From Nitrospira sp. CG24C (lineage in GTDB: Bacteria > Nitrospirota > Nitrospiria > Nitrospirales > Nitrospiraceae): 64,000 bases of DNA. The notes below the pieces were generated by a model that made no database searches, was not told the origin of the DNA, and worked only from the letters and a program-made list of their open reading frames with translations. Positions 1-6,740 of this stretch are shown piece by piece. The stretch is taken from contig NEWR02000009.1 of the NCBI GenBank assembly GCA_002869885.2, forward strand, positions 584,136-648,135, written 5' to 3'. Position numbers and translations under genes: made by a program. The first letter of the stretch is position 1. Each line of letters starts with the position of its first letter.

Positions 1-85
1 CAGATCCTCAACGTACCCCAGAGGGTACGCCTCCGGTCTTCACTCGCTGCGGCCTTGCTGAACAGCCTTTTTGAGCATCCTGAAG
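1..85 (-). repeat. Partial copy of dispersed palindromic element (family of 55281-55410)
   Basis: Read on the minus strand this matches the first two thirds of the element at 55281-55410, including the edge GGATGCTCAAAAAG and the inner palindrome GTACCCTCTGGGGTAC. The window edge cuts off the rest. It lies downstream of fabF and may act as a transcription end or mRNA-protecting hairpin; that role is inferred. Confidence 0.75.
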
Positions 86-160
86 ATATTTTGACATCGA
101 AACCAATATACAAGATTCTAACGGTGCATGGTGTCTATAAACTTGGTTTTTCCGGAGCCT

Positions 161-1411
161 CTAGGCATCTGGTTTCCCGAAGAGTAGGCAGGCATTGACC
201 CCGCCGAACCCAAAAGAGTTCGACAGTGCGACCCTCACTGTGGCCGGTCTGGCCTTGTGCGGGATATAGTCCAGATCGCAGGCAGGATCCGGATGGTCCA
301 AGTTGATCGTCGGAGGAAGTATCCCGTGGTGAAGCGCCAGGACCGTAAATACCGCTTCAATCCCACCGGCTGCCCCGAGTAGGTGGCCGGTCATCGACTT
401 GGTCGAACTCACCGGGATACGGTAAGCCTGCTCACCGAACACCTGCTTGATAGCCTTGGTCTCAATCGCATCCGCCATCGTCGACGTACCATGCGCGTTG
501 ATGTACCCGACCTGGTCCTTGCCGATGCCGGCATCCTTGAGCGCCAGCTCCATACAGCGCACCGCGCCTTCTCCCTCTTCGGACGGGGCGGTAATATGGT
601 AGGCGTCGCTGTTCATGCCGTAGCCGATGAGTTCGGCATAGATTCGGACCCCGCGCCGTCGCGCATGCTCCAGTTCCTCCAACACGACAACTCCGGCGCC
701 TTCGCCAAGCACGAACCCGTCCCGATCCTTGTCGAACGGCCGGCTCGCTTTTGTCGGATCAGCGTTGCGGAACGATAGGGCCTTCGACGCGGCAAATCCC
801 GCAACCCCCAACGGGGTAATGGCGGCTTCCGCCCCGCCTGCGATCATGACATCTGCATCCCCGGCCTGAATCAATCGATAGGCGTCGCCGATACAATGAT
901 TACCTGTTGCGCAGGCCGTCACCGCACAGGAGTTCGGTCCCTTGGCGCCCAATCGGATCGCCACCTGTCCGGAAGCCAGGTTGATGATGGTCATGGGAAT
1001 GAAAAACGGCGAGACGCGTCCGGGGCCTTTCTCCTGCAGAATCGTGTGATAATGCTCGATCGACCCAAGCCCCCCGATGCCCGATCCGATATACACACCG
1101 ACTTTCGTGGCCTCTTCAGGCGCCACAGTAAATCCTGCATCTTCCACCGCCAGTTGGGCAGCGCCCACGGCATAGTGGATGAACGCATCCATTTTCTTGA
1201 TTTCTTTTTTCTCGATGAACTTGGCTGGATCGAAGTCTTTCACTTCACCGGCGATTTGAGCATCATACGCGGAAGGGTCGAACTTCGTAATTCGACCGAT
1301 GCCGGATTCACCGGCACAGATGGCCTTCCAGGTCTTTTCGACACCCGTTCCCAGAGGTGTGATCAGCCCCAGACCGGTCACCACAATTCGCCTGGTCGAA
1401 CGAGGACTCAT
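161..1411 (-). CDS. fabF: Beta-ketoacyl-ACP synthase II (FabF)
   Basis: Elongating condensing enzyme of type II fatty acid synthesis, joining malonyl-ACP to acyl-ACP in the cytosol. The whole thiolase-fold chain is present. Counted from the ATG used here, the nucleophile is Cys167 in TACATGNHC, with the two catalytic histidines at His307 (NAHGTST) and His343 ([10 protein letters not shown]). The frame can be read from a TTG at 1423, but the ATG at 1411 has AGGA five bases upstream and gives a normal-length N-terminus ([14 protein letters not shown]). It is the last gene of the operon, directly after acpP. Confidence 0.96.
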
Positions 1412-1426
1412 CGCGTCCTGCAACCG

Positions 1427-1660
1427 CTAGGCCTTTTCCTTGATATAGTCCAACGCTTTCCCAACGGTCAGAATCTTCTCTGCATCTTCGTCGGGAATCT
1501 CGATACCGAACTCTTCTTCGAGGGCCATCACCAACTCAACCGTATCGAGCGAGTCAGCGCCGAGATCTTCCACGAAGCTGGCTTCGGGCGTGACCTCATC
1601 CTCTTCGACTCCGAGCTGTTCACCGATAATTTTCTTGACTCGTTCATCCACAGTACCCAT
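1427..1660 (-). CDS. acpP: Acyl carrier protein
   Basis: Carrier of growing acyl chains on a 4'-phosphopantetheine arm. The 77-residue acidic helical protein has the attachment motif GADSLD with the modified serine at residue 37. The frame is open to 1726, but the strong AGGAGG lies just before the ATG at 1660, giving the standard ACP length and N-terminus ([10 protein letters not shown]). It sits between fabD and fabF; in related operons fabG normally lies directly upstream, and here it is absent. Confidence 0.96.
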
Positions 1661-1749: not shown

Positions 1750-1803
1750 TCACGGCATCAACATCCCCCCGTTCACGTGCAACACGTGCCCGGTGATGTA
1801 GGC
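1750..1803 (-). pseudogene. fabG: Residual 3' end of fabG fused to fabD
   Basis: The codons for residues 280-296 of the fabD frame encode the FabG-like terminus YITGHVLHVNGGM. No other part of a ketoacyl-ACP reductase (TGxxxGIG motif, YxxxK active site) is present in the window. The remnant lies exactly where the fabG stop would be expected, 89 bases before the acpP start. Confidence 0.7.
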
Positions 1804-2640
1804 TAAGGTCGTCACACCCATCGCAGCCATGGCCTTCACCGAATCTTCCCAGAGCACCGACGAAGGAAGTTGTCGTACCAGCGAGGCCCGAATATCGCTC
1901 GCCTTCGTAATGGCTTTCGCTTCGGCATTGTTAATCAGTGGCATTTTGAGATCGGACCAGGTGATCGCAGCCAAATCTCCGGCCAGTCGATCGGCGGCCT
2001 TCTGCATCAATGGGGTATGCACCGGCACGCTCACGGGAAGAGGGATTGCTTTCTTACATCCCTTGGCCTTCGCCAGTTCAATGGCCCGTTCCACGGCGGC
2101 CTTTTCCCCGGCAATGACAATCTGGCCTGGTGAATTGAAATTCGCTGCAGCCACAACTCCTACAGACGAGGCCTCTCGACAGACCTCTTTCACCACGTCA
2201 ACCGAGAGGCCAAGAAGCGCGGCGACAAGCCCAGTCCCAGGCGGCACGGCTTCAGCCATATAGCGGCCTCGCTTCTGTACGATCCCCACCGCCTCGCGAT
2301 AGGTCATTCCACCAGCGGCGACAAGGGCCGAATATTCACCCAGGCTATGACCCGCCACCGCAATCGGTGCGATGCCTAATGGCTTGAACGCCTGGAGCGC
2401 GGCAATGCTGCTGACCAGCAATGCAGGCTGAGTATATTCCGTGAGGTTCAATCGTTCCACTGGTCCCTCAAAACACAGTGCGCCAATGTCGTACCTCAGT
2501 ATCGACGAGGCTTCCTCGTAAAGAATCCTGATGCTGGGATCAGCCTCTACCAAGGCTCTTCCCATCCCGACTGACTGAGACCCCTGGCCTGGGAAGACCA
2601 ACCCGATACTGGCTGCCCTGGTTGATTGGAGAGTCACCAT
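1750..2640 (-). CDS. fabD: Malonyl-CoA:ACP transacylase with FabG-like C-terminal tail (fabD'-'fabG fusion)
   Basis: FabD loads malonate onto ACP. The GQGSQ motif, nucleophile Ser99 in GHSLGEY, catalytic His208 (VPVHTPLM) and NFNSPGQIVIAG are intact. After MAAMGVTTL (about residue 279) a FabD should continue with a GPGxVLxGL segment and a final helix. Instead the last 17 residues (AYITGHVLHVNGGMLMP) look like the extreme C-terminus of FabG (YITGxxLHVNGGM). fabG usually lies between fabD and acpP, so the reading is an in-frame deletion removing the fabD end and nearly all of fabG. Whether the product is active is unknown. A metagenome assembly error is a real alternative. Confidence 0.85.
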   Translation of the reverse strand: MVTLQSTRAASIGLVFPGQGSQSVGMGRALVEADPSIRILYEEASSILRYDIGALCFEGPVERLNLTEYTQPALLVSSIAALQAFKPLGIAPIAVAGHSLGEYSALVAAGGMTYREAVGIVQKRGRYMAEAVPPGTGLVAALLGLSVDVVKEVCREASSVGVVAAANFNSPGQIVIAGEKAAVERAIELAKAKGCKKAIPLPVSVPVHTPLMQKAADRLAGDLAAITWSDLKMPLINNAEAKAITKASDIRASLVRQLPSSVLWEDSVKAMAAMGVTTLAYITGHVLHVNGGMLMP

Positions 2641-2854: not shown

Positions 2855-3829
2855 CTACCACCTGATAAGCGCCGATGCCCACGTCAGTCCGGCGCCGAAA
2901 GCCCCTAACATCACCACACTCCCGTCTTTGATGCGCCCCTGCCGCACGGCTTCATCCAAGGCAATGGGAATTGAGGCTGCAGATGTATTCCCATATCGAT
3001 CGAGGTTCAACATCACTTTCTCCGGAGGAAGTCCGAGGCGTTCGGCCACCGCTTTGAGAATACGCACATTCGCTTGGTGCGGCACGTAGAGGTCAAGATC
3101 TTCAACCCGGAGATGATTCGCAGCCAAAGTCTCCCGAGCGACCTCTTCCAAGTTTCGAACTGCCACCTTGAAGGTCTCGTTCCCCTTCATCTTGATGTAC
3201 TGCATCCGTTCCGCCACGACCTTCTCAGAGGGAGGTAAACGCGATCCTCCCCCAGGCACTGCAATCAAATCGCAGAGGGCGCCATCGGAACGAAGATGCG
3301 TCGAGAGGATGCCCCGGTCGTTCTCACTGGCGCTGATCACTGCCGCCCCAGCCCCATCGCCGAATAAAATACAGGTATTGCGATCGGTCCAGTCGGTAAT
3401 CGCCGACATCACTTCAGATCCGACAATCAACACATGACGCATGCCGGTTCTCACATAGGCATCCGCCACCGATAACGCATAGACGAACCCGCAACAGGCG
3501 GCCGACAAATCGCACGCCGCCGCACGCGTCGCTCCTAGCTGATGCTGGATCAAACAAGCCGTGGCAGGAAGCGGATAATCGCCGGTACAGGTGGCCAGCA
3601 GAATCAGGTCAAGGTCAGCCGCACTCACCCCAGCGGCGATCAGAGCCCGTTCCGCCGCCTTCACCGCCAGATCGGAGCAGGCTTCACCGGGGCCGGCCAC
3701 ATGCCGCTCTCGGATGCCGGTCCGTTCGACGATCCATTCGTCTGAGGTGGCCACCATCCGTTCGAGATCGGCATTGGTCAACACCTTGGTCGGCACATAG
3801 GATCCAGTCCCTGCAATGCGGGCCTTCAT
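2855..3829 (-). CDS. fabH: Beta-ketoacyl-ACP synthase III (FabH)
   Basis: Initiates fatty acid synthesis by condensing an acyl-CoA primer with malonyl-ACP. The 324-residue protein has the complete KAS III triad: Cys112 (SAACCGF), His251 (VPHQAN) and Asn281 (GNTSAAS). The family's N-terminal signature (GTGSYVPTKVLTN) and GDGAGA are also present. Its ATG overlaps the plsX stop by four bases (ATGA), so the two are probably translationally coupled. Confidence 0.96.
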   Translation of the reverse strand: MKARIAGTGSYVPTKVLTNADLERMVATSDEWIVERTGIRERHVAGPGEACSDLAVKAAERALIAAGVSAADLDLILLATCTGDYPLPATACLIQHQLGATRAAACDLSAACCGFVYALSVADAYVRTGMRHVLIVGSEVMSAITDWTDRNTCILFGDGAGAAVISASENDRGILSTHLRSDGALCDLIAVPGGGSRLPPSEKVVAERMQYIKMKGNETFKVAVRNLEEVARETLAANHLRVEDLDLYVPHQANVRILKAVAERLGLPPEKVMLNLDRYGNTSAASIPIALDEAVRQGRIKDGSVVMLGAFGAGLTWASALIRW

Positions 3830-4851
3830 GCCGGCTTATCCTCGACAGGCTTGACTTGCGAGAAACTTTCTTCAATGTCGCGCTGAATCAGCTCGTCGAC
3901 ACGGCTCTCTGCCAGCCCCTTCGCCCGACGAATGGCATTCTTGATCGCCTTGGCAGACGAACGGCCATGGCAGATCATGGTAATACCGTTGACGCCCAGA
4001 AGCGGCGCTCCGCCGAATTCCGCATAATCGATTTTTTTCTTCAAGTTACGCAACGGCCCGGCAATGAATGGATAGGCCAGGCGGCCTAAGAATGACCCGG
4101 AGATTTCCTTGACTAACAACTTCTTGATCGTATCGGCCACTCCCTCGGAAATTTTTAGCGCAACGTTTCCGATGAAGCCATCGCACACCACGACATCGGC
4201 GCTCCCGCTATACACATCGCGGCCTTCGATATTGCCGATGAAGTTGAGTTGACTGGCCTTGAGGAGCTTGAACGCCTCTTTGGTCACCTCATTTCCTTTA
4301 CCATCTTCCTCCCCGATGCTCAACAGCCCGATACGTGGGTTGGGCTTCCCAAAGAGATGTTTGCCGTACTCATTTCCCATGATGGCAAATTGTGCCAGAT
4401 GCTGAGCCGAACAGTCCACATTGGCTCCCACATCCAACATGATCGCCGTACCAGTCAATGTGGGCAGGCTTGTCGCGATCGCCGGCCGTTCGACACCCTT
4501 CGTCAGTCCGAGAATAAAGAATGACGCTACCATACTGGCGCCGGTGTTCCCAGGGCTGACCACGGCACTCGCCTCGCCGCTCTTGACCAATTCAGTGGCA
4601 ACCCAGATAGAAGAATCCCGCTTCTTGCGGGCGACGGAAGCAGGCGACTCGTGCATCTCAACGACTTGGGAGGCATGCCGGATAGAGAGGCGGGGGTCCG
4701 TACAACCGAGACGGCGACATTCGGCGGTGATGATAGCCTCGTCACCGACCAACAGCACTTCGACATCGCATTCCTGGGCGGCCTGGAGAGCTCCCTCAAT
4801 GGCCGGAGCCGGTCCATGGTCACCGCCCATGACATCTAGCGCGATCTTCAT
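3826..4851 (-). CDS. plsX: Phosphate acyltransferase PlsX
   Basis: Makes acyl-phosphate from acyl-ACP for glycerol-3-phosphate acylation, linking fatty acid and phospholipid synthesis. The 341-residue protein begins with the family hallmark MKIALDVMGGDHGP and contains VSPGNTGA, LDVGANVD and VCDGFIGNV. The plsX-fabH-fabD order is the classical one. A 183-base gap without recognisable signals separates it from rpmF upstream. Confidence 0.95.
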   Translation of the reverse strand: MKIALDVMGGDHGPAPAIEGALQAAQECDVEVLLVGDEAIITAECRRLGCTDPRLSIRHASQVVEMHESPASVARKKRDSSIWVATELVKSGEASAVVSPGNTGASMVASFFILGLTKGVERPAIATSLPTLTGTAIMLDVGANVDCSAQHLAQFAIMGNEYGKHLFGKPNPRIGLLSIGEEDGKGNEVTKEAFKLLKASQLNFIGNIEGRDVYSGSADVVVCDGFIGNVALKISEGVADTIKKLLVKEISGSFLGRLAYPFIAGPLRNLKKKIDYAEFGGAPLLGVNGITMICHGRSSAKAIKNAIRRAKGLAESRVDELIQRDIEESFSQVKPVEDKPA

Positions 4852-6171: not shown

Positions 6172-6199
6172 TAGCAGGATGCTGAAAAGTCCGCCTGCC
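6172..6199 (+). repeat. Repeat edge AGCAGGATGCTGAAAAGTCCGCC
   Basis: The sequence AGCAGGATGCTGAAAAGT closely matches the terminal arms of the element at 55281-55410 and a minus-strand copy at 23001-23026. Here it directly borders the large hairpin at 6210-6314. Confidence 0.6.
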
Positions 6200-6209
6200 T
6201 TGTTCATTT

Positions 6210-6314
6210 GGTCTATCGGGCTATCTCGTCTGTCTGGTCTATTCGGTCTGTCTGGTCTTTGGTTGAGCGGAACTACCCAGATAGACCAGACAGACGAGAT
6301 AGCCCGAATAGACC
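6210..6314. repeat. Large hairpin between ssb and rpsR
   Basis: A 33-base arm at 6210-6242 (GGTCTATCGGGCTATCTCG...) is the inverse of 6281-6314 with one bulge. The spacer adds further GTCTGTCTGGTCT units. In the rpsF-ssb-rpsR transcript it would form a very stable hairpin between ssb and rpsR, so it could act as an attenuator or mRNA processing site; that is inference. Confidence 0.85.
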
Positions 6315-6332
6315 GGACAGACCTGGCTTCGT

Positions 6333-6740
6333 CTAGACATGCTCGTCGGATTCAAACCCCGGGTCATCGTGCACAGGCGCCTCAGCCCCGCCTCCGCTGC
6401 CACCGCCATCCTGGCGTTTCGGCATGAACGTCACCGTTTGGGCCACCACCTCATGCTTGCTGCGCTTCTGGCCGTCTTCCGTTTCCCATCGGCGATGCTG
6501 CAACCGACCATCGACGATGATTCCGTTCCCCTTGCTGAGATACTGCCCGCAATGTTCCGCCTGCTTGCCAAAGACGACAATGTCGACAAAACAGACTTCT
6601 TCTTTCAATTCATCGCCCTGCTTGTACCGCCGACTGACCGCGAGGCCCAAACTGGCCACCGGCGTCCCGTTCGGCGTATACCGCAGCTCAGGATTCCGCG
6701 TGAGGTTCCCGAGGAGAATGACTTTATTAAACCCGGCCAC
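6333..6740 (-). CDS. ssb: Single-stranded DNA-binding protein
   Basis: OB-fold ssDNA-binding protein of replication and repair (GFNKVILLGNLTRNPELRY at the N-terminus, then VCFVDIVVFGKQAE and GRLQHRRWE). GAGGAG seven bases before the GTG at 6740 supports that start over the TTG at 6746, giving about 135 residues. After a Gly-rich linker the chain ends DDPGFESDEHV, so the acidic tip lacks the usual terminal DDIPF form. It overlaps the rpsF stop by 14 bases. Confidence 0.94.
   Translation of the reverse strand: MAGFNKVILLGNLTRNPELRYTPNGTPVASLGLAVSRRYKQGDELKEEVCFVDIVVFGKQAEHCGQYLSKGNGIIVDGRLQHRRWETEDGQKRSKHEVVAQTVTFMPKRQDGGGSGGGAEAPVHDDPGFESDEHV

Follow-up and report, generated by a model that had tools for sequence, protein, structure and literature searches.

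An in-frame fabD–fabG fusion in Nitrospira sp. CG24C as a probable artefact of assembly or consensus

In the genome assembly of Nitrospira sp. CG24C, fabD runs in frame into the last codons of a fabG that is otherwise missing from its operon. We consider this fusion, with a probability of roughly 90%, to be an artefact of assembly or consensus, because on sequence comparison it is found in one assembly only, it adjoins a scaffold gap, and the scaffold carries four further blunt deletions that damage conserved genes. The first-pass annotation had left both a natural fusion and an assembly error open; these three observations argue for the error and against the natural fusion. As biology, the fused gene is probably not a real feature and matters little. 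It does carry a warning, namely that a well-rated assembly (94.36% complete, 0.11% contaminated) nonetheless has core metabolic genes with several clean deletions. Absences or fusions of fabG, of a POR subunit or of ilvC here should therefore be taken as physiology only with reads in hand.

The fused reading frame and its junction

The fused open reading frame lies on the − strand at positions 1750-2640 of the window (the whole stretch of 64,000 nt that was analysed) and encodes 296 amino acids. Positions 1805..2640 (− strand) hold FabD residues 1-278, the catalytic part of malonyl-CoA:ACP transacylase, as identified by a match to the NCBIfam fabD model TIGR00128 and by genus alignments. Positions 1750..1803 (− strand) hold the last 17 codons of fabG and its stop codon, in frame with fabD, as identified by DNA comparison and weak matches to FabG models. 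This FabG-derived tail of 17 residues reads AYITGHVLHVNGGMLMP. Against TIGR00128 the fused product scores 300.2 bits (curated cut-off 260.9) with residues 12-287 matched, and stretches of residues 248-295 weakly match five models of FabG or related reductases (E 5.5e-4 to 0.026), one of the matches reaching the last model position and four stopping one short of it.

The product is thus like FabD (TIGR00128, PF00698) in its curated-score match and in its kept active-site columns. GQGSQ, GHSLGE, R124, H208 and Q257 are all retained, in columns that are invariant or nearly so among 20 sequences (H98 nearly so); we take these motifs and the conserved Arg, His and Gln to have active-site roles. It differs from FabD in that the last 45 residues, with the C-terminal GPGxVLxGL strand, have given way to one junction residue and the 17 FabG residues. 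With FabG (TIGR01830) it has in common the last 17 residues and the stop codon, whereas 230 of the 247 residues are missing and with them the Rossmann fold, the cofactor site and the catalytic residues. A full SDR domain is therefore absent from the frame, and no Pfam SDR match was found in it at E values up to 10.

Aligning the product with the FabD and FabG of relatives, as the first-pass annotation had proposed, confirmed the junction. The closest genomes, G013 and G017 (FabD amino acid identity 93%), carry separate fabD and fabG genes, and DNA comparison with them places the join at positions 1803..1805 (− strand). Above it the window corresponds to fabD of G013 (94.5%) and G017 (91.0%); below it the fabG tail, acpP and the start of fabF match the same two genomes at 96.8% and 93.0%, respectively. 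The offset is 879 nt, or 293 codons, and is identical against both. By hand count the loss comprises the last 45 residues of FabD, its stop codon, a 54-nt spacer and 230 of the 247 FabG codons. No more than 1-2 nt are common to both sides of the junction, where between one and a few bases resemble neither the fabD nor the fabG side well. The profile matches and DNA alignments bear out the initial description of a FabD that is normal to about residue 279 and then ends as the C-terminus of FabG, of a fabG gone from between fabD and acpP, and of an in-frame deletion that took the GPGxVLxGL segment and nearly all of FabG.

The gene order on the − strand of the window is plsX (3826..4851), fabH (2855..3829), fabD, acpP (1427..1660, with the start placed by us at MGTVDERV) and fabF (161..1411), and the four neighbours of the fused gene are intact. 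Across 81 codons acpP shows no nonsynonymous difference from G013 or G017.

FabD and FabG across the genus

A FabD match (E 1e-60) was obtained in 29 of 32 genus genomes, this one (G000) included. The fused form occurs in none of the 28 other genomes that gave a FabD, out of 31 searched, and the recurrence in independent genomes that had been suggested as a sign of a natural fusion was thus not seen. The 28 proteins are 82-93% identical in amino acid sequence to the fused FabD, with alignments that stop at residue 281-282 and open frames of 328-346 residues. Their C-terminal sequence was read directly for G013, G017 and G025 and as DNA for five others, and a simple-pattern search located both junction-side places in 7 of the 29 loci. 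In a named genome collection, 11 of the best 80 FabD loci were titled Nitrospira, Nitrospiraceae or Nitrospirales, and the 23 C-termini read among these 80 were all of the ordinary FabD type, in a collection from which the window's own record may be missing. An exact search of viral contigs with the 35-nt junction, a weak test, gave no match, and a search of the literature by title gave no paper on such a fusion.

FabG was found in 28 of the 32 genomes, a count that takes in G013, and is 91-100% identical to the query from that genome; it is shortened in G003 (by a contig end) and in G029 (codons 1-47 missing at a contig start). The genomes with no FabG match are G000, G025, G002 and G023. G025 was considered as a second genome lacking fabG and rejected, as an N gap interrupts its fabG; in G002 and G023 neither FabD nor FabG was detected.

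Search for a replacement fabG

If the deletion were real and fixed, the lineage would live without fabG, its FabD would end in a FabG-derived tail, and another SDR (e.g. that at C22:761481) would reduce 3-ketoacyl-ACP. We regard this as very improbable. The genome search that the first-pass annotation had called for found no FabG orthologue elsewhere in the 22 contigs, an absence that is not absolute in a genome 94.36% complete, and no second FabD. The FabG query returned seven other SDRs at up to 40% identity, together with the fused tail itself. The best of the seven, at 40% identity, would suit a fixed deletion in being a conserved FabG-like SDR present in this genome; it is, however, a genus-wide core gene, found in 31 of 32 genomes, this one included, beside normal FabGs, and we therefore reject it as a late or special replacement. 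Excerpts of two studies describe FabG as essential in Escherichia coli and Ralstonia solanacearum, and the operon or chromosomal fabG as needed in Enterococcus faecalis and R. solanacearum despite fabG-like paralogues (PMC13293336, PMC4618531); a pair of additional fabG-like genes is described there as unable to take over from fabG in E. faecalis.

Selection and predicted structure of the fused FabD

The open frame itself is in keeping with a fixed deletion, as is an AlphaFold2 prediction from 20 sequences, which retains the FabD fold with a mean pLDDT of 91.8, a result that the ordinary FabDs in the input alignment may impose. Local pLDDT is below 50 for residues 1-7 and about 63-68 for residues 281-296.

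Over codons 1-279 fabD shows 15 nonsynonymous and 32 synonymous differences from G013 (18.5 and 63.5 between G013 and G017). By these counts fabD is under purifying selection up to the join, which suggests that the gene worked until very recently or still does. Against G013 its omega is 0.147, above the 0.021-0.058 of fabH, plsX and fabF. Decay of fabD after loss of fabG was considered as an explanation and set aside, there being no clear acceleration.

Other blunt deletions on the scaffold

We compared the scaffold C22 with G001 over about 325 kb of aligned sequence and looked for blunt losses of 90 nt or more in G000, those whose alignment gap lies between −1 and +1. Five such deletions were found, of 94, 102, 172, 946 and 879 nt (the last being 834 nt against G001), and each falls within or across protein genes that are intact in G001. 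The 946-nt loss (C22:571693) removes an epsilon-type subunit with a CO_dh domain (PF02552) and part of a ferredoxin-like subunit, whose 4Fe-4S matches fall under curated cut-offs, beside a POR_N (PF01855) gene (POR epsilon/delta). The 172-nt loss (C22:569473) shifts the frame of an Rsm22-like (PF09243) methyltransferase, and the 102-nt loss (C22:539582) lies in frame within an FAD_binding_2 flavoprotein. The 94-nt loss (C22:427310) puts ilvC out of frame from about residue 33 onwards, and no other copy of the gene was found in this genome. Modulo 3 the sizes are 0 (879 and 102) or 1 (946, 172 and 94), which is what would be expected were the frame not under selection.

The POR epsilon subunit is full-length at 93% identity or more in 22 of the 32 genomes (G001 counted; one stop lies in the G028 copy) and partial in G013, G004 and G017. 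This genome has only a 56% paralogue elsewhere; G010, G015, G022 and G023 likewise show paralogue-level matches only, and G003 and G025 show none. As the subunit is also missing from other genus genomes, its absence alone says little, and it is the cut at the locus that counts.

Against G018 the 172-, 879- and 946-nt losses are again blunt, and G018 retains the missing parts. The ilvC and flavoprotein deletions were compared at the DNA level with G001 only, the G018 stretch that was fetched lying outside them. Our count leaves out less clean losses of 774, 278, 191, 126 and 113 nt against G001 (27-47 nt remaining between the flanks) and one of 210 nt against G018 (gap 11). A scan by reading frame, which misses in-frame deletions and those extending over more than one gene, gave three events among 386 G001 frames (275 with matches), namely the 172- and 94-nt losses and a less clean one of 61 nt; the reverse scan of 651 G000 frames (314 with matches) gave one event, of 65 nt.

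In a control comparison of G001 with G018 over 206 kb, five events of at least 60 nt were seen, with alignment gaps of 3-7 nt and none blunt. The comparisons with G000 also contain two blunt events in the other direction, one in which G001 is shorter by 59 nt and one in which G018 is shorter by 89 nt; both lie outside conserved parts of reading frames. Altogether 18 stretches shorter in G001 or G018 served as control events (three G018 repeats of G001 places excluded) and were checked for coding and for conservation of the missing part in the third genome. No cut into a conserved gene was seen among these 18, several of which could not be judged as the third genome lacked the region, against five such cuts in G000. 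The missing part was well conserved in two, of 73 and 1124 nt. The former corresponds to residues 1-27 of a stop-to-stop frame, which we presume to be aroE-like, upstream of its likely start MDINAHTQFCGVIGNP; the latter takes a whole 297-aa gene out of G001. A further control event, of 266 nt, is partly conserved in all genomes.

A fixed deletion would require that the scaffold has also truly lost ilvC function, the POR subunit and others through blunt deletions. An autotroph with no FabG, a broken ilvC and a broken POR together is hard to believe. We hold it very improbable that a living Nitrospira has truly lost its operon fabG, has a working FabD whose C-terminus comes from FabG, and reduces 3-ketoacyl-ACP with a conserved paralogous SDR.

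Scaffold gaps and mixed strains

The 654 kb of C22 fetched for the analysis of gaps (of 954 kb) contain 18 runs of exactly 100 N. One of these, C22:584036-584135, ends at the base before the window, and the fabD-fabG junction lies 1.8 kb from this gap and contig end. All five blunt deletions are within 6.9 kb of a gap, at a mean distance of 3.8 kb compared with 14 kb for aligned positions (100,000 draws, p 0.0076, or 0.0067 with two neighbouring events taken as one, in a post hoc test devised after the events had been seen).

At the gap C22:576353-576452 the flanking contig ends repeat one stretch (333 nt at 88% identity and 183 nt at 92%), and at C22:453200-453299 the contig ends overlap over 147 nt at 88% identity. 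Since these overlaps reach only 88-92% identity, strains look mixed, and sequence of more than one strain seems to have been joined in the scaffold. The other gaps end in interspersed repeats, in short exact overlaps or in neither. A generally low consensus quality near gaps was considered as an explanation and found no support, since small frame-shifting indels are not clearly denser there (deletions per kb, 1.29 up to 2.5 kb from a gap, 1.96 at 2.5-5 kb, 1.22 at 5-10 kb and 1.16 beyond).

In its single assembly, adjoining gap, several similar events and mismatched contig-end overlaps, the fusion resembles a structural error in a metagenome-assembled genome; it differs in its blunt join and preserved frame, and is known here from assembled sequence alone. 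Blunt joins are unusual for misjoins made by k-mer assemblers. The blunt join, the preserved frame, the raised omega of fabD and the lack of a clear excess of small indels near gaps all count against an artefact.

Blunt junctions do resemble true products of end-joining, and a real deletion could be present in part of the population, in dead or dying cells or as a segregating variant, the assembler having preferred it to the undeleted sequence. The apparent mixture of strains would suit this, but five events in genes in about 160 kb of one scaffold must then each locally outnumber the intact form, and we give the idea very little credence.

If, as we favour, the fusion is an artefact of assembly or consensus, the genes of the organism most likely form an ordinary plsX-fabH-fabD-fabG-acpP-fabF operon. 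An 879-nt piece that runs from the last part of fabD through most of fabG would then have been dropped next to the scaffold gap, and reads would be expected to restore it. The loss may stem from a mixture of strains or from short contigs that were poorly bridged; poor bridging at contig breaks due to strain variation is plausible because the fabG genes of G003, G025 and G029 are likewise truncated or interrupted by a gap. The in-frame outcome would then be a one-in-three coincidence.

At the contig end, positions 1..160 of the window (no strand assigned) consist of an interspersed repeat. About this length does not align to G013, G017, G018 or G012. Across the 654 kb there are 26 matches to the window's first 200 bases. 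Separately, an intergenic repeat resembling GGTCTATCTGGTCTGTC lies at about positions 6174-6334 of the window and is absent at that place in G001, G017 and G018.
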